Positions 4,030 through 16,043 of a stretch of DNA of 64,000 nt are shown in pieces. Positions within the stretch are counted from its first letter, which is position 1; every line of letters begins with the position of its first letter. Source of the stretch: a bacterium (GTDB lineage: Bacteria; Bacteroidota; Rhodothermia; Balneolales; M1805). A program made the position numbers and the translations under genes. The notes under the pieces are model-generated. The model searched no databases, was not told where the DNA came from, and saw only the letters and a list, made by a program, of their open reading frames with translations. The stretch is taken from the NCBI GenBank assembly GCA_006226965.1, contig SBGQ01000033.1:1-64000 (forward strand), written 5' to 3'.

Positions 4030-4713
4030 ATGCATCAATTTTCTAGAATAAAATACACTTTACTAGCATTCAGCTTGCTATTTACAACTGATTCTATTCT
4101 GGCACAATCACATAAATCTGAAACTAAGATTAGTGCATCTACTGTCTTTTTAAAATCTTTGGTATTACCGGGTTGGGGGCATTTTTCGCTTTCTCCTGAA
4201 CATCATACCAGAGGCTATATTCATCTCGGCACGGAAATCGGTTTGATGTTGAGTTACTTCGGAATTGATGCTAGTACGCAACGTTTACAACAGAATATGT
4301 ATGCCCATGTTGAGTTATATGCAGGAACAAGTATACAAAACAGAGACAGAGGCTATGCGTTGGCATTAACACGATATGAGAACTTGAGCGCATATAACGA
4401 ATATCAGGAAAGAAGCAGAAACTGGAACGCTTTTATTGCCGATACACCGAGTAATAGATGGCAATGGGAATCTGTAGATGCACGTGAAGATTATATCAGA
4501 ATGCGAAATAAAATTGACGCTAATAATCAACAGTTACCATTTATTGTAACGGTGATGGTTGCAAACCGAATTATTAGTGGAATCAGTGCATTTATACGTG
4601 CTCGTGAAATGAATCAAACCGCTTCCGCAACATTATCATCTATTTCTGTATCACCCGTTCAGCAATTTGGTACAGTTAACGGACTTCAAATGAATTATTC
4701 TATTCGGTTTTAA
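4030..4713 (+). CDS. Secreted/membrane protein, DUF5683-like
   Basis: Signal peptide MHQFSRIKYTLLAFSLLFTTDSILAQS and LVLPGWGHFS motif; start moved from 3922 to in-frame ATG at 4030. Confidence 0.6.
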   Translation: MHQFSRIKYTLLAFSLLFTTDSILAQSHKSETKISASTVFLKSLVLPGWGHFSLSPEHHTRGYIHLGTEIGLMLSYFGIDASTQRLQQNMYAHVELYAGTSIQNRDRGYALALTRYENLSAYNEYQERSRNWNAFIADTPSNRWQWESVDAREDYIRMRNKIDANNQQLPFIVTVMVANRIISGISAFIRAREMNQTASATLSSISVSPVQQFGTVNGLQMNYSIRF

Positions 4714-4715
4714 TT

Positions 4716-5456
4716 GTGCCCAGATTTTTTCTTTATCTGGAATATGATGGTTCTCAATTTGAAGGCTGGCAGATTCAACCCGGAGTATCAACAGTACAAG
4801 GTGAACTAAACCTTGCATTAAAAACCATCTGTAAATCTGAAGTTTTTGTTTACGGTTCAGGTAGAACAGACGCCGGTGTTCACGCATCATTTCAAGTGGC
4901 TCATGCCGATTTACCACAGGAATATGAAAAAGGTAAAATTCTCAGAAGCTTAAACGCATTATTGCCTGCAGGGTGTAAAGTCTGGGATATTCAATTAGTT
5001 AATAATGACGCCCATGCGCGGTTTGACGCTACCGATCGTTCATATGTTTATAAAGTTATTACCAACCCTTCCCCGCTTCGCGATCATACTTCCTGGTATT
5101 TAAACAATCGATTAGATTTTAATTTAATGTGTGATGCAGCCCATTTAATTACTGCTGTTACTAATTTTGAAACATTCTCCAAGCCTAATCCGGGAAATAT
5201 TGGCTCAACATTTTGTAAAGTAAGTTTAGCAGAATGGAAGCAAATCTCTGATGATGAGTTTCATTTTCATATTACTGCCAATCGTTTTTTGCACCATATG
5301 GTTCGCTATTTAGTCGGAAGTATGATTCGAATCGGTGATTATAAACTAAGTCTAGAGCGATTCAACAACGTTTTACAGGGCATTGATACTGATTACGTCC
5401 ATTTAAAAGCTCCTGCCAAAGGTTTATGCTTAACACATATTAGTTTTCCAAAATAA
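4716..5456 (+). CDS. truA: tRNA pseudouridine(38-40) synthase TruA (GTG start)
   Basis: LEYDGSQFEGWQIQP, YGSGRTDAGVHA and FLHHMVRYLVG motifs. Confidence 0.96.
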   Translation: MPRFFLYLEYDGSQFEGWQIQPGVSTVQGELNLALKTICKSEVFVYGSGRTDAGVHASFQVAHADLPQEYEKGKILRSLNALLPAGCKVWDIQLVNNDAHARFDATDRSYVYKVITNPSPLRDHTSWYLNNRLDFNLMCDAAHLITAVTNFETFSKPNPGNIGSTFCKVSLAEWKQISDDEFHFHITANRFLHHMVRYLVGSMIRIGDYKLSLERFNNVLQGIDTDYVHLKAPAKGLCLTHISFPK

Positions 5457-10088: not shown

Positions 10089-11690
10089 TTGAAATCAATT
10101 AATGTGATAAAAGGCAATGTGGTTGATGTTGTGAGCCGAACCATTTTTGCTGCTGAAGTACATGTTTCCGGCGGGATTATTATTTCCATCAAACCGATAC
10201 AAGAAGTGTGTTCCACGTACTTAATACCGGGATTTATTGATGCACACGTTCATGTAGAAAGTTCGATGTTAGTACCGACTGAGTTTGCACGAATTGCTGT
10301 AAAACACGGAACCATCGGCACGATTTCAGATCCGCATGAGATCGCTAATGTACTTGGCATAGCAGGTGTTGAACTTATGCTCGATAATGCTTCTCACTCC
10401 CCTTTTTATTTCAACTTTGGAGCCCCCTCTTGCGTTCCGGCAACCAAATTTGAAACCGCCGGAGCCGAATTAACAGCTGATGATATTGACCAACTTTTAT
10501 CACGAAAAGAAATCGTTTACCTCTCCGAAATGATGAATTTCCCCGGCGTGATATTTAACGATGCTGATGTACTTGCAAAACTTGATGTTGCAAAAAAACA
10601 CGGCAAACCGATTGACGGTCACGCTCCCGGTTTAATGGGAAAACAAATGCTCCAATATTTTGATGCGGGAATAACAACCGACCACGAATGTTTTATGTTT
10701 GATGAAGCTCTGGAAAAACTGAAACACGGTGTAAAAATCATGATTCGTGAAGGTAGTGCGGCTAAAAACTTCGAAACCTTAATTCCGCTACTTAAAGAGT
10801 ATCCCGATCAAATTATGTTTTGTTGTGATGATAAACATCCAGATAATCTCATTGATTCCCATATAGATAATCATGTAAAGCGAGCGGTTGCATATGGGCA
10901 CGATGTCTTTGATGTTCTTCGAGCTGCATCATACAATGTCATTAAACATTATAACTTACCAATCGGCTATTTACAGGTCGGACAATCAGCCGATTTCATT
11001 GAAGTTTCTGATTTGACAGAATTCAAGGTATTAAAAACAATTATTAAAGGTGAAATTGTTGCTGAAAACGGTATTTCATATCTAGAAAAAGTTCCTGCGC
11101 CTATTTTAAACCAATTTGATACCAGTTTAAAAAGCGTTAAAGATTTTGAGTTAACGGTAGAAAGTGAAACAGTTCGTGTAATTGAAGCATTAGACGGACA
11201 ACTCATCACAAAAGAACTTCATTTAAACGCAAATGAGAAAGATGTTCTTAAAATCGCAGTCATAAACCGATATAGAAACGCTCCCGTTTCTGTAGCATTC
11301 ATAAAAAACTTTGGTTTAACGTGCGGAGCCATTGCCGGGTCAGTAGCGCACGATTGTCATAATATTGTAGCTGTCGGAACCAATGATGAAGATTTGGCAA
11401 ATGCTGTGAATCTCATCATCGAACAAAAAGGCGGGATTTCGTTAGCCAATGGTACTGAAAAGCATATTCTCCCCTTACCAATTGCGGGAATAATGACCAA
11501 TCAATCTGCAGAAGAAGTTGCAGAAGCCTACGTGAAAATGGATAAGCGAGCTAAAGAATTAGGAAGCACATTACGTGCTCCCTACATGACTCTTTCGTTT
11601 ATGGCATTATTGGTAATTCCAGAACTAAAGCTGAGCGATTTAGGATTATTCGACGGTAAGAACTTCGAATTTGTGAATCTAAGCGTTTAG
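10089..11690 (+). CDS. ade: Adenine deaminase (TTG start)
   Basis: PGFIDAHVHVESSML, ISDPHEIANVLG, GAIAGSVAHDCHNIVAVG. Confidence 0.93.
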   Translation: MKSINVIKGNVVDVVSRTIFAAEVHVSGGIIISIKPIQEVCSTYLIPGFIDAHVHVESSMLVPTEFARIAVKHGTIGTISDPHEIANVLGIAGVELMLDNASHSPFYFNFGAPSCVPATKFETAGAELTADDIDQLLSRKEIVYLSEMMNFPGVIFNDADVLAKLDVAKKHGKPIDGHAPGLMGKQMLQYFDAGITTDHECFMFDEALEKLKHGVKIMIREGSAAKNFETLIPLLKEYPDQIMFCCDDKHPDNLIDSHIDNHVKRAVAYGHDVFDVLRAASYNVIKHYNLPIGYLQVGQSADFIEVSDLTEFKVLKTIIKGEIVAENGISYLEKVPAPILNQFDTSLKSVKDFELTVESETVRVIEALDGQLITKELHLNANEKDVLKIAVINRYRNAPVSVAFIKNFGLTCGAIAGSVAHDCHNIVAVGTNDEDLANAVNLIIEQKGGISLANGTEKHILPLPIAGIMTNQSAEEVAEAYVKMDKRAKELGSTLRAPYMTLSFMALLVIPELKLSDLGLFDGKNFEFVNLSV

Positions 11691-11698
11691 CATATTGC

Positions 11699-12112
11699 TT
11701 AGTTGGCAATGTATTTAATATTCGTTTTCTTTCTGCTGATGGTTCCGAACGATTCATCAACTAAAACTAAATCGCGATTCTCTTTGTTTAAATAGAACTT
11801 TGCAAAACCATTATTGCTGTACTCGATTTTATAAACCCAGCACGAAATTGATTTGTTTGAGATAGTTATGGTTTCGTCTTCAAGTCGCTTAAAGATGTAG
11901 TTTTTAGGCCCTGATTTTGAACCCGGATGATAAAAAGGAATCTCTACATCAGACTTTATTTCTACTGGAAATAATCGCACGGTTTCGAGATCAATTTCGA
12001 AATTATAGGCATTCAATGAATCTGCCATTTTGAAATTACTTAGGCTGTTATTTTGCGTTGTATCTGAGGATGCCACAAACCCATCAGCATAATTAAATGC
12101 TTCTGTAACACC
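11699..12112 (-). pseudogene. C-terminal part of an interrupted gene for a secreted protein
   Basis: Joins in frame to 13431..13766(-) if the intervening 1318-bp unit is removed (AAC | GGT GTT ACA GAA); 414 nt including stop. Confidence 0.8.
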
Positions 12113-12133
12113 GTTATGAGCAAGGCTATGACG
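12113..12133 (+). repeat. Left imperfect terminal inverted repeat
   Basis: GTTATGAGCAAGGCTATGACG; 15/21 identical to the reverse complement of 13406-13426. Confidence 0.7.
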
Positions 12134-12137
12134 ACAC

Positions 12138-12160
12138 AACCCGACAGACAAAATCGGGTT
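12138..12160. other. Subterminal hairpin inside the left end of the unit
   Basis: Perfect 7-bp stem AACCCGA-cagacaaaa-TCGGGTT followed by CTTTTG. Confidence 0.65.
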
Positions 12161-12174
12161 CTTTTGATATTTTG

Positions 12175-12196
12175 TATTTAAGCAATTGCTTAAATA
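12175..12196. promoter_or_regulatory. Palindromic operator candidate for the ArsR-family regulator
   Basis: Perfect 22-bp palindrome TATTTAAGCAATTGCTTAAATA immediately upstream of the arsR-like gene. Confidence 0.8.
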
Positions 12197-12215
12197 AACA
12201 AATTGACTATCTTTG
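12185..12215 (+). promoter_or_regulatory. Bacteroidota-type promoter of the arsR-like operon
   Basis: -33 ATTG (12185-12188), 19-nt spacer, -7 TATCTTTG (12208-12215), matching TTTG-N19-TAnnTTTG. Confidence 0.75.
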
Positions 12216-12219
12216 CACT

Positions 12220-12594
12220 ATGGACAACATTTCGTGTATAAGACAACAAGCGGACATTAAGCAAATCAACCGCTGTAAAGACCGAGTATTAGAACTGAAC
12301 GGTTCGTTTGACTATTTATCCAACGGACTTGAATTGGCGGGTAACAACGTAAGACTGAAAATCCTGTTTCTGCTTTACGAAGAGCAACAACTTTGCGTTT
12401 GCGACCTTAGTGACATTCTCGGAATGACCATTTCGGCAATTTCACAACATCTGCGAAAACTCAAAGACCGAAAACTAATTGAAACGGAAAGGCAAGCACA
12501 AACCATTTTTTACTCACTGACAAAAGAGTATGAAAAAATGCTCAAACCTTTTTTCAAAATACTTCACGAAAACAAAATTTTGGAAACAATATGA
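12220..12594 (+). CDS. ArsR/SmtB-family metalloregulator
   Basis: MDNISCIRQQADIKQINRCKDRV...QQLCVCDLSDILGMTISAISQHLRKLKDRKLIETER; wHTH plus LCVCDL metal-site-like motif; start placed at 12220, downstream of the promoter. Confidence 0.88.
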   Translation: MDNISCIRQQADIKQINRCKDRVLELNGSFDYLSNGLELAGNNVRLKILFLLYEEQQLCVCDLSDILGMTISAISQHLRKLKDRKLIETERQAQTIFYSLTKEYEKMLKPFFKILHENKILETI

Positions 12595-13190
12595 AAACAG
12601 ACAAAAAATTAATCGGTGCAGGACTTTTGACAGCAATTGCAGCCTCACTTTGTTGCATCACACCTGTATTGGCTCTTGTCGCAGGGACAAGCGGACTTGC
12701 TTCAACTTTTTCTTGGCTTGAACCTTTCCGACCTTATTTTATAGGTTTGACAATTTTGGTTCTTGGTTTTGCTTGGTATCAAAAGTTGAAACCTAAAAAA
12801 CAAATTGACTGCAATTGTGAGACAGAAGAAAAACCAAAATTCATTCAATCCAAAATGTTTTTAGGAATTGTAACAGCATTTGCAATAGTAATGCTTGCCT
12901 TTCCTTACTATACTCACATATTTTATCCAAAGACAGAAAAACAAATCATAGTAGTTGACAAATCAAATGTTCAAACAGTTGAGTTTTCCATTAGCGGTAT
13001 GACTTGTGCAGGTTGTGAAGAACACGTAAACCACGAAGTGAATAAGCTTTCGGGAATAATAAAATCAACTGTTTCATACGAAAACGGAAATGCAATTGTA
13101 GAATTTGATAACTCAAAAACGAACATTGCCGAAATTGAGAAAGCAATAAACGGAACAGGATATTCAGTAACAGACAAAAAGGAAAAATAA
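12591..13190 (+). CDS. MerT-MerP fusion (mercuric/heavy-metal transport protein with C-terminal HMA domain)
   Basis: TM protein with SLCCITPVLALVAGTSGLAS (MerT-like) plus C-terminal HMA motif ISGMTCAGCEEHV; overlaps arsR-like gene by 4 bp. Confidence 0.85.
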   Translation: MKTDKKLIGAGLLTAIAASLCCITPVLALVAGTSGLASTFSWLEPFRPYFIGLTILVLGFAWYQKLKPKKQIDCNCETEEKPKFIQSKMFLGIVTAFAIVMLAFPYYTHIFYPKTEKQIIVVDKSNVQTVEFSISGMTCAGCEEHVNHEVNKLSGIIKSTVSYENGNAIVEFDNSKTNIAEIEKAINGTGYSVTDKKEK

Positions 13191-13191
13191 A

Positions 13192-13398
13192 ATGGAAATC
13201 ATACTACAATCAACAATCACTTGCCCAAATTGCGGACATAAAAAGGAAGAAACAATGCCGACAGACGCTTGCCAATATTTTTACGAATGTGATAATTGCA
13301 AGACCGTTTTAAAACCACATCAAGGCGACTGTTGTGTTTATTGCAGTTACGGAAGTGTAAAATGTCCGCCAATTCAACAAGACAAGAAATGTTGCTGA
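13192..13398 (+). CDS. GDCCVxC domain-containing small Cys-rich protein
   Basis: HQGDCCVYCSYGSVKCPP motif, CPNCG at N-terminus. Confidence 0.88.
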   Translation: MEIILQSTITCPNCGHKKEETMPTDACQYFYECDNCKTVLKPHQGDCCVYCSYGSVKCPPIQQDKKCC

Positions 13399-13405
13399 CA
13401 AAAGA

Positions 13406-13426
13406 CGAAAAAGCCCAGCCCATAAC
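13406..13426 (-). repeat. Right imperfect terminal inverted repeat
   Basis: CGAAAAAGCCCAGCCCATAAC; reverse complement GTTATGGGCTGGGCTTTTTCG matches left end 15/21. Confidence 0.7.
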
Positions 13427-13430
13427 AGCG

Positions 13431-13766
13431 GTTTGTAGCTCTAGTGTGATATTTTGGTTTAAAGTCAGTTGAGCTAAGCCAAGTTTGCAATTCTCTATTG
13501 TTTGGAGTCATCGTTGATGTCCATTTTTGCTTGATTTCTATCAAAGAATCACCTCGATGTTCTATTCGTTTAACTGATCTCTCCCAAACTGAGATATCTA
13601 ATAATTGACTTTCTCGAACGATGGTTACCAAATAGTTCGAGGTTTCATTTTTAATCATTTTATTCAAATAATCAGCAGAAAACGAAAAAGGTTTCGGTGC
13701 TTGTTGTGCTAAAACTGAACCGGACATAGAGAGAAACAATGCTGTTGCAAGAAACTTGAGATTCAT
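13431..13766 (-). pseudogene. N-terminal part of the interrupted secreted-protein gene
   Basis: Signal peptide MNLKFLATALFLSMSGSVLAQ; reading frame reaches the unit boundary after exactly 112 codons. Confidence 0.8.
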
Positions 13767-13881
13767 AAAAGTAAAACTATCTATTGGTGAAAAATCTAAA
13801 CCAGGTGCGATTTCGATTTTTACTAAACAAGGTTTCCAATTTGTGACGAACCGCTATTTATCTCTCAACTTTTACATACAA

Positions 13882-13912
13882 AAAAGGCTCAACATCTAAT
13901 GCTGAGCCTTTT
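13882..13912 (-). terminator. Terminator after the M3 peptidase gene (possibly bidirectional)
   Basis: AAAAGGCTCA ... TGAGCCTTTT stem; U-run on minus strand. Confidence 0.8.
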
Positions 13913-13928
13913 AAATCAACCGAAAAAA

Positions 13929-16043
13929 CTAATTTAGTCCTCGTTTTTTCAACAAGGCATCAACTTTGGGCTCACGTCCTCTGAACGTTACATACAATTT
14001 CATCGGATCGTCCGTTCCGCCTTTTTGCAATACATTTTCACGGAATGATGTCGCCAATTCTTTATCAAAGAGATTACCTTTTTGCTTAAAAGCATCAAAA
14101 GCGTCGGTATCTAACACACCGGACCAGATATAAGAATAATATCCCGATGAATAACCACCGGCAAAAATATGCTGGAAGTAAGAGCTTCTGTAACGAGGGA
14201 TAATTTCTTTCGGCAAACCGATTTTTTGCATAGAAGCATTCTCGCGTTCCGTAATTGAACCTTCAATCGGGCGAGTTTGCATGTGATAATCCATATCGAG
14301 GAAACTTGCAGCCAAATATTCAACCGTAGCAAAACCCTGATTAAACGTACCGCTGTTTTGAAGTTTTTGTATCAACTCATCAGGAATAACTTCGCCTGTT
14401 TTGTAATGTTTAGCATACTGTTTCATTACTTCCGGCTCTCCTGCCCAGTTTTCCATAATCTGTGAAGGTAATTCCACAAAATCGCGCGGCACTGAAGTTC
14501 CTGCCTGACTTGCATAGCGTACATTCGATAACATTCCGTGCATAGCATGTCCGAATTCATGGAAGAATGTTTCTACTTCATCAAATGTCAATAATGCAGG
14601 TTTATCGCCTGTCGGACGAGAAAAATTACATACAATTGAAATTACTGGAGCTTTACGTACACCGTTTTCCATTTTTTGTGAGCGATAACTAGTCATCCAA
14701 GCTCCGCCTCTTTTGCTTGCACGCGGATGAAAATCCATATACAATACACCTAAATGGCTACCGTCTTTGTCCAACACCTGATACGCTTTTGCTTCTTCAT
14801 GATAAACTGGAATATCCGGTCTGGGTTTGAATTGTAAACCATAAAGATTATTCACCACGTAGAATACACCTTCACGAACGGCGTCTAAACTGAAATATTC
14901 GCTTAGTTCATTTTCATCTAAAGCATATCTGTCTTTACGAATTTGTTCTGCGTAAAAACGCCAATCCCAAGGTTCTAACTTAAATTTTTGACCCGAAGCT
15001 TTTATCATTTTCTGCATGTCTGAGGCTTCTGTTTTGGCTTTTTTTACAGCAGGCTTCCAAAGGTCGTTCAATAACCCCATAACATTGGCAGGTGTTTTTG
15101 CCATAGATTCTTCCAATACATAATCGGCATGGGTTCTATAGCCTAACAGTTGAGCACGTTGAACACGCAAATTCGTTATTTCTGATAAAATAGCGTTATT
15201 GTCACGCTCATTACCTTGGTCGCCTCGTTTTCTATACGCATCCCAAATTTGCTGGCGTAATTCGCGATTTTCAGCATATTGCAAAAACGGCATTACAGAA
15301 GGGTTTTGCAAGGTAAACATCCATTTTCCTTCCAAGCCTTTTTTCTTTGCAGTTTCAGCTGCAGATGAAACTAAAGTGGCAGGCAATCCCGCTAAATCTG
15401 CTTCATTTTCAATAACTAATTCATAAGCGTTTGTTTCACCGAGCACATTTTGTCCGAATTTCAAGGTTAAAACAGACAATTTTTCGTTTATGCTTCTTAA
15501 AACTTCTTTTTTATCGTCTTTAAGATTAGCTCCGCTGCGAACAAATCCCTTGTACGCATCATCCAATAATTTAAACTGGTCGGCATCTAACCCTAAATCA
15601 TTTCTTTTTTCCCATACTGTTTTAACACGAGCAAACAGTTTTGGATTTAGATTGATGTCATCTGAATGGCGTGACATATCAGGAGCAATTTCCTGCGCAA
15701 TTTTCTGCATTTCATCGCTGGTATTTGCCGAATTCAAATTGTAAAAAATGCGGGCAACTTGTGTTAATGTAGAACCTGCATTTTCCAGCGCTTCAATCGT
15801 ATTTTCGAAAGTCGGAGCATCAGGGTTATTCGAGATAGCTAAAATTTCTGCTTGATGATCTTTAATGGCTTCATCAAAAGCTGGTTTAAAATGCTCCAAT
15901 TTAATTTTATCGAATGGAGGAACTTCAAACGGTGTATCAAATTTGCTGAGTAAAGGATTCATTGTTGATTTTGAGCTTGGTGATGAACATGAGAGGCTCA
16001 AAAGTAAGATAAGCGCCCCCAAGTTAACAGCGATTTTCTTCAT
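13929..16043 (-). CDS. M3-family peptidase (peptidyl-dipeptidase Dcp-like), lipoprotein
   Basis: FFHEFGHAMHGML zinc site; lipobox-like LLSLSCSS at N-terminus; start placed at MKKIAVNLG. Confidence 0.93.
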   Translation of the reverse strand: MKKIAVNLGALILLLSLSCSSPSSKSTMNPLLSKFDTPFEVPPFDKIKLEHFKPAFDEAIKDHQAEILAISNNPDAPTFENTIEALENAGSTLTQVARIFYNLNSANTSDEMQKIAQEIAPDMSRHSDDINLNPKLFARVKTVWEKRNDLGLDADQFKLLDDAYKGFVRSGANLKDDKKEVLRSINEKLSVLTLKFGQNVLGETNAYELVIENEADLAGLPATLVSSAAETAKKKGLEGKWMFTLQNPSVMPFLQYAENRELRQQIWDAYRKRGDQGNERDNNAILSEITNLRVQRAQLLGYRTHADYVLEESMAKTPANVMGLLNDLWKPAVKKAKTEASDMQKMIKASGQKFKLEPWDWRFYAEQIRKDRYALDENELSEYFSLDAVREGVFYVVNNLYGLQFKPRPDIPVYHEEAKAYQVLDKDGSHLGVLYMDFHPRASKRGGAWMTSYRSQKMENGVRKAPVISIVCNFSRPTGDKPALLTFDEVETFFHEFGHAMHGMLSNVRYASQAGTSVPRDFVELPSQIMENWAGEPEVMKQYAKHYKTGEVIPDELIQKLQNSGTFNQGFATVEYLAASFLDMDYHMQTRPIEGSITERENASMQKIGLPKEIIPRYRSSYFQHIFAGGYSSGYYSYIWSGVLDTDAFDAFKQKGNLFDKELATSFRENVLQKGGTDDPMKLYVTFRGREPKVDALLKKRGLN

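Follow-up and report, generated by a model that had tools for sequence, protein, structure and literature searches.

A DUF3108 gene of a Balneolales bacterium interrupted by a putative integron-type MerTP cassette that lacks its attC hairpin

The window analysed here, a stretch of 64,000 nucleotides from contig SBGQ01000033.1 of a Balneolales genome (GCA_006226965.1), contains two minus-strand reading frames separated by a short unit with three plus-strand genes (Table 1). A preliminary description had taken the two frames for the halves of a single gene, and this is borne out with the codon counts it gave: conceptual excision of positions 12113-13430 (1318 bp) restores an in-frame protein of 249 aa. 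The joined protein matches Pfam DUF3108 over residues 56-231 (E=1.2e-9), spanning the join at 112/113. A search for intact relatives, as that description had proposed, retrieved two that span the join, G052 (E=5.8e-23, residues 6-244), which aligns through it with one extra residue there, and G054, which is gap-free at this point. Because the Pfam match and the relatives align across the join, the arrangement is more than chance and, as judged from sequence, is a DUF3108 gene split by an insert.

Table 1. Features of the interrupted gene and of the insert (positions in the window)
Feature	Position	Strand	Basis or remark
3' half of interrupted DUF3108 gene	11699..12112	-	138 codons including stop; joined protein matches DUF3108
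Inserted gene cassette of integron type, without its attC hairpin	12113..13430	+	limits of the homology shared with dozens of copies
Cassette left end GTTATGAGC, R' core, crossover G^TT	12113..12121	+	common start in copies with unrelated flanks
Terminator-like stem-loop AACCCGA-N9-TCGGGTT, then CTTTT	12138..12160	+	read in sequence; conserved in copies
22-bp perfect palindrome TATTTAAGCAATTGCTTAAATA	12175..12196	.	computed
TATCTTTG, inferred Bacteroidetes-type -7 promoter box, directly 5' of arsR	12208..12215	+	read in sequence
ArsR/SmtB-family metalloregulator	12220..12594	+	PF01022; NF033788 above cut-off
MerTP mercuric transport fusion protein	12591..13190	+	NF033556, 316.7 bits (cut-off 180)
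GDCCVxC domain protein	13192..13398	+	NF041374, 111.1 bits (cut-off 40)
attC remnant: R'' core GCCCATAAC and first bases of left arm, AGCG	13418..13430	+	comparison with the complete attC sites of L006 and L098
GTTTG, in both attC left arm and host target; proposed deletion endpoint	13431..13435	+	sequence comparison
5' half of interrupted DUF3108 gene	13431..13766	-	112 codons; joined protein matches DUF3108

On the plus strand, the junctions read CACC/GTTATGAGC at the left and GCGG/TTTG at the right. GTT is present at both, as reported earlier, and the restored host target is CACC^GTTTG, which itself contains G^TT; the target site sequence is CACCGTTTG, and the uninterrupted site would read ACACCGTTTGTAG. 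The earlier claim of a precise element boundary needs refinement at the right end. Homology with other copies runs to 13435, which makes this end ambiguous by five bases (GTTTG), and the boundary proposed there belongs to a truncated cassette.

The unit starts at G^TT and carries genes, all three of which score above the NCBIfam cut-offs; the absence of a recombinase inside it is confirmed. A role of the cassette in mercury handling is inferred. Mercury reduction is unsupported, the two MerA homologues encoded in the same genome reaching 289 and 272 bits, both below the cut-off of 454. The palindrome upstream of arsR is likely to be the ArsR operator, a function that is likewise inferred, and it is followed by a sequence read as a Bacteroidetes-like promoter box, the consensus of the Bacteroidetes -7 box being TAnnTTTG. 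That the conserved stem-loop acts as a terminator is an inference, and a simple scan did not flag it. The scan for sigma-70 promoters and terminators returned a number of sites not much above that in shuffled sequences and none in the cassette leader, and an Rfam search of 11000-14500 gave no match.

A genome scan for relatives of the cassette returned 80. In most of the closest copies, homology begins at the G^TT of the window (12110-12113) and ends at 13435, with unrelated DNA outside; of 1325 positions compared with the Flavobacterium suncheonense copy (L006), 1321 are the same. The same cassette, starting with G^TTA, is found with unrelated flanks in dozens of Bacteroidota, and MerTP cassette copies elsewhere occur in tandem, head-to-tail arrays. 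The presence of near-identical copies at other sites in Bacteroidota, together with intact host-gene relatives that span the join, supports the earlier reading of a recent cassette-like interruption; that reading had recognised neither an integron-type cassette mobilised in trans nor the absence of its attC hairpin. Other relatives, at about 85-87% DNA identity, have only the genes in common and lie in a different, conserved context that lacks the cassette ends. At L021, L022, L051 and L054-L061, arsR-merTP-GDCCVxC genes at 86% DNA identity, again without cassette ends, share one nearly invariant context across many genera, which is probably a conjugative element.

Thirty-four recovered copies end in a stretch of 132-135 bp, running from GCCMMTAACAGCGGTTTGGC or a variant of it to G^TT, that contains an attC-like hairpin of ~125 bp. 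The exact motif CATAACAGCGGTTTG, with one copy in the host's own genome and present in 7 of 300 genomes, was too strict as a search, and a covariance model built from 19 of the 34 copy ends was used instead; at a threshold of E<=0.1 it matched 214 sites, spread over 54 sources. Among 148 distinct sequences, the stem positions pair in 95% of cases with 611 double-sided changes, while slid controls reach 25-50% pairing and 46-116 such changes. The alignment had been fitted to the attC model, and the counts lean towards it. With this reservation, the 3' ends of the copies are, on sequence evidence alone, an attC-type site with R cores TAAC/GTTA.

No match to the attC model was found in the window, including its cassette copy. 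What is missing from this copy is a segment of 115 bp between the GTTTG of the attC left arm and the GTTTG of the host; whichever strand is folded, this segment gives a long hairpin. The native cassette is accordingly ~115 bp longer than the 1318-bp insert. The ends, gene content and remnant of the insert identify it as a truncated integron-type gene cassette. The copy L067, on a short contig, stops at the same place in the attC left arm as the window copy, with AACAGCGG as its end, and is possibly a second case of hairpin loss.

These observations can be accommodated in a two-step history that is inferred throughout and considered likely. A Bacteroidota integron-type cassette of ~1.43 kb (ArsR-MerTP-GDCCVxC and attC) would have been inserted at the off-array site CACC^GTTTG in the DUF3108 gene by integron-like site-specific recombination, with the recombinase acting in trans. 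Afterwards, the attC hairpin would have been lost by a deletion between the GTTTG of the left arm and that of the host, removing 115 bp. The loss is most simply explained, again as an inference, by palindrome-stimulated deletion between the flanking repeats. Such a loss would have immobilised the cassette. Cassettes with one flanking recombination site are already hard to excise (PMC2426708); without attC this one should be fixed. Neither an empty allele nor a copy with a full attC at the host site of the window supports this account; the recombination event itself, the order of insertion before deletion and the identity of the acting recombinase are inferred.

The deletion step could be dispensed with if the recombinase had used the GTTTG of the attC left arm in place of the R' site, so that the hairpin never arrived. 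The left arm does have a G^TT exactly at the observed right end, and L067 likewise ends at AACAGCGG; however, the bottom strand of attC, once folded, is cut at its R' core by known integrases, the left end of the insert was cut exactly at the R' core, and GTTTG repeats flanking a long hairpin are consistent with a deletion. Direct insertion remains a minor possibility beside insertion followed by deletion.

No IntI above the TIGR02249 cut-off was detected in the host genome or in any of the 34 cassette-carrying genomes. All 34 carriers encode tyrosine recombinases that match mainly both ends of the IntI model, the best of them mostly ~340-400 aa long. Aligned with IntI1 and VchIntIA, they lack the ~44-aa IntI-specific insertion, a domain called essential for known integrases in the literature, and keep the catalytic residues and the SPLD tail. 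In a tree, the family groups with IntI1, apart from XerC/D, with full support, the exact placement of IntI1 being unsure owing to its long branch. The family has an added N-terminal region, for which a structure model gives strands and helices without a clear match; the top matches in a structure search were XerA, VchIntIA and XerH, leaving this region unnamed. A HARP-like character of this region, suggested by resemblance by eye, is unsupported by Pfam. The best NCBIfam match of the host's own recombinase is NF040815, 'site-specific tyrosine recombinase/integron integrase' (XerA_Arch), at 210 bits, under the cut-off of 220 and without covering the N-terminal region; a Chryseobacterium plasmid relative carries this name, which implies no array linkage.

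The link between this family and attC arrays is visible in the genomes themselves. Twenty recombinase loci contained 80 attC matches, with attC in 16 of them, and none of 20 xer control loci, taken from the same set of genomes except for one from another carrier, contained any; two of the four recombinase loci without a match are cut by a contig end. Across 300 Bacteroidota genomes, the recombinase occurs in 100, attC-like sites in 136 and both in 83 (Fisher p=3e-21, uncorrected for relatedness). Sites resembling attI, of the form CATATATANNA^GTTRGC, lie downstream of the recombinase stop codon at about a dozen loci, as recognised by eye and without recombination data, and in L071, L027 and L078 the array that follows the recombinase opens with the MerTP cassette. 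In the complete chromosome CP058707.1 (G357; L174-L178, L144), at least 149 attC-like sites pass the threshold. Those listed lie on one strand only, between 3.476 and 3.983 Mb, and end ~3 kb from the recombinase gene. Five 20-kb samples inside this region contain 65 matches and three outside contain none, a density that suggests some 300 sites. The array, headed by the non-canonical recombinase, thus covers ~507 kb, about 12% of the chromosome.

The system from which the cassette derives resembles an integron of a non-canonical variant, with activity that is inferred. In common with the canonical integron (IntI, attI and attC array) it has cassette arrays that bear attC hairpins, the R cores TAAC/GTTA, a recombinase gene at the array head and, as read by eye, an attI-like site. 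It differs in its recombinase, which lacks the IntI-specific insertion, carries the N-terminal addition and is usually encoded in the same direction as the array, and in its attC arms, which have an asymmetric 1-versus-5-base spacer. The best candidate for the enzyme that acted on the window would be the host's own 360-aa protein on contig C4, or a relative from the family that heads such arrays across Bacteroidota; no activity has been shown, and the dependence of the insertion on this recombinase is inferred. Counting against this assignment are the four recombinase loci without an attC match, the lack of an array beside the C4 copy and the reported need of known integrases for the missing domain. 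A canonical IntI from another bacterium or a plasmid might also have inserted the cassette, and off-target cassette insertion by IntI1 is documented (PMC10127599; Loot et al. 2024, as cited in PMC12901181). This is improbable, as no IntI exceeded the cut-off in the host or in the 34 carriers and the Bacteroidota arrays adjoin the other recombinase.

Group II introns were observed within or beside cassette arrays, Rfam confirming those at L049 and L169 only. At five loci (L007, L039, L053, L065 and L075), sequence that looks intron-like interrupts the right ends of cassettes at the R'' core of attC; known group IIC-attC introns would interrupt at attC in such a way.

The host genome contains 15 attC-like sites, all on contigs other than that of the window. 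No further attC match was found on the contig of the window (C155), the window itself included, and the host gene lies on both sides of the cassette, which is therefore outside any array. The IntI-related tyrosine recombinase on contig C4 is intact and has no adjoining array. A second integron, with a truncated recombinase and at least one attC, is present on contig C75 (L104), with a recombinase fragment at 1721-2269, an attI-like site near 2400, an attC at 4332-4462 and cassettes downstream; its reading frames at 4541-5205 look by eye like a toxin-antitoxin pair (RHH/PIN). The attC-like sites scattered on the small contigs C59, C148, C11, C90, C136, C116, C98, C134, C91 and C87 are the host's own cassette arrays, fragmented by assembly.

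The state of the assembly, in 184 contigs, and the repetitive nature of hairpins leave room for an artefact, in which pieces were misjoined or the attC was dropped by the assembler. This is highly improbable, since the flanks are the two parts of a single gene, meeting at a G^TT site, and an assembly would not collapse on repeats of only 5 bp. The imperfect inverted repeats at the ends (GTTATGRGC, 8/9 bases) suggest a unit that is MITE-like or mobilised by an IS, but this is barely credible given the attC hairpins at the ends of the copies, their head-to-tail arrays and the absence of a target duplication. A transposon with terminal inverted repeats is rejected on the grounds of the same attC ends and arrays.

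Off-array insertion of cassettes at secondary or attG sites is known (Recchia & Hall 1995 and Loot et al. 2024, as cited in PMC10127599 and PMC12901181). Off-array insertion followed by attC deletion, the history preferred here, would resemble these cases in the single cassette, the G^TT crossover, the arbitrary genomic site and a recombinase in trans. The window differs in its Bacteroidota type of cassette, in the subsequent loss of attC and in the disappearance of the usual route of re-excision. Partial or total loss of attC is also described for fused cassettes (PMC4670013), in which a cassette is likewise fused to its neighbour; in the window the partner of the fusion is a host gene, away from any array.

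Integron surveys depend on the IntI-specific domain (PMC9668308). Within Bacteroidetes, IntegronFinder 2.0 reported a single complete integron, that of Salinibacter (PMC9024848), and Bacteroidota are absent from a set of taxon-specific attC models (PMC8352920). A literature search yielded no description of the Bacteroidota system; its novelty is provisional, because preprints and most subscription papers were outside that search. The evidence leans towards a widespread and largely unrecognised integron system of Bacteroidota, whose recombinase, lacking the IntI-specific domain and carrying another N-terminal region, would recombine long attC hairpins, with arrays of up to ~507 kb and cassettes also scattered into host genes. 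Should this recombinase be the working integrase, many integrons have been overlooked in a major phylum, attC hairpins could be handled without the extra IntI domain, and it would become possible to search the mobile gene pool of Bacteroidota. The window would then represent an example of a cassette that left the arrays, broke a gene and became fixed.
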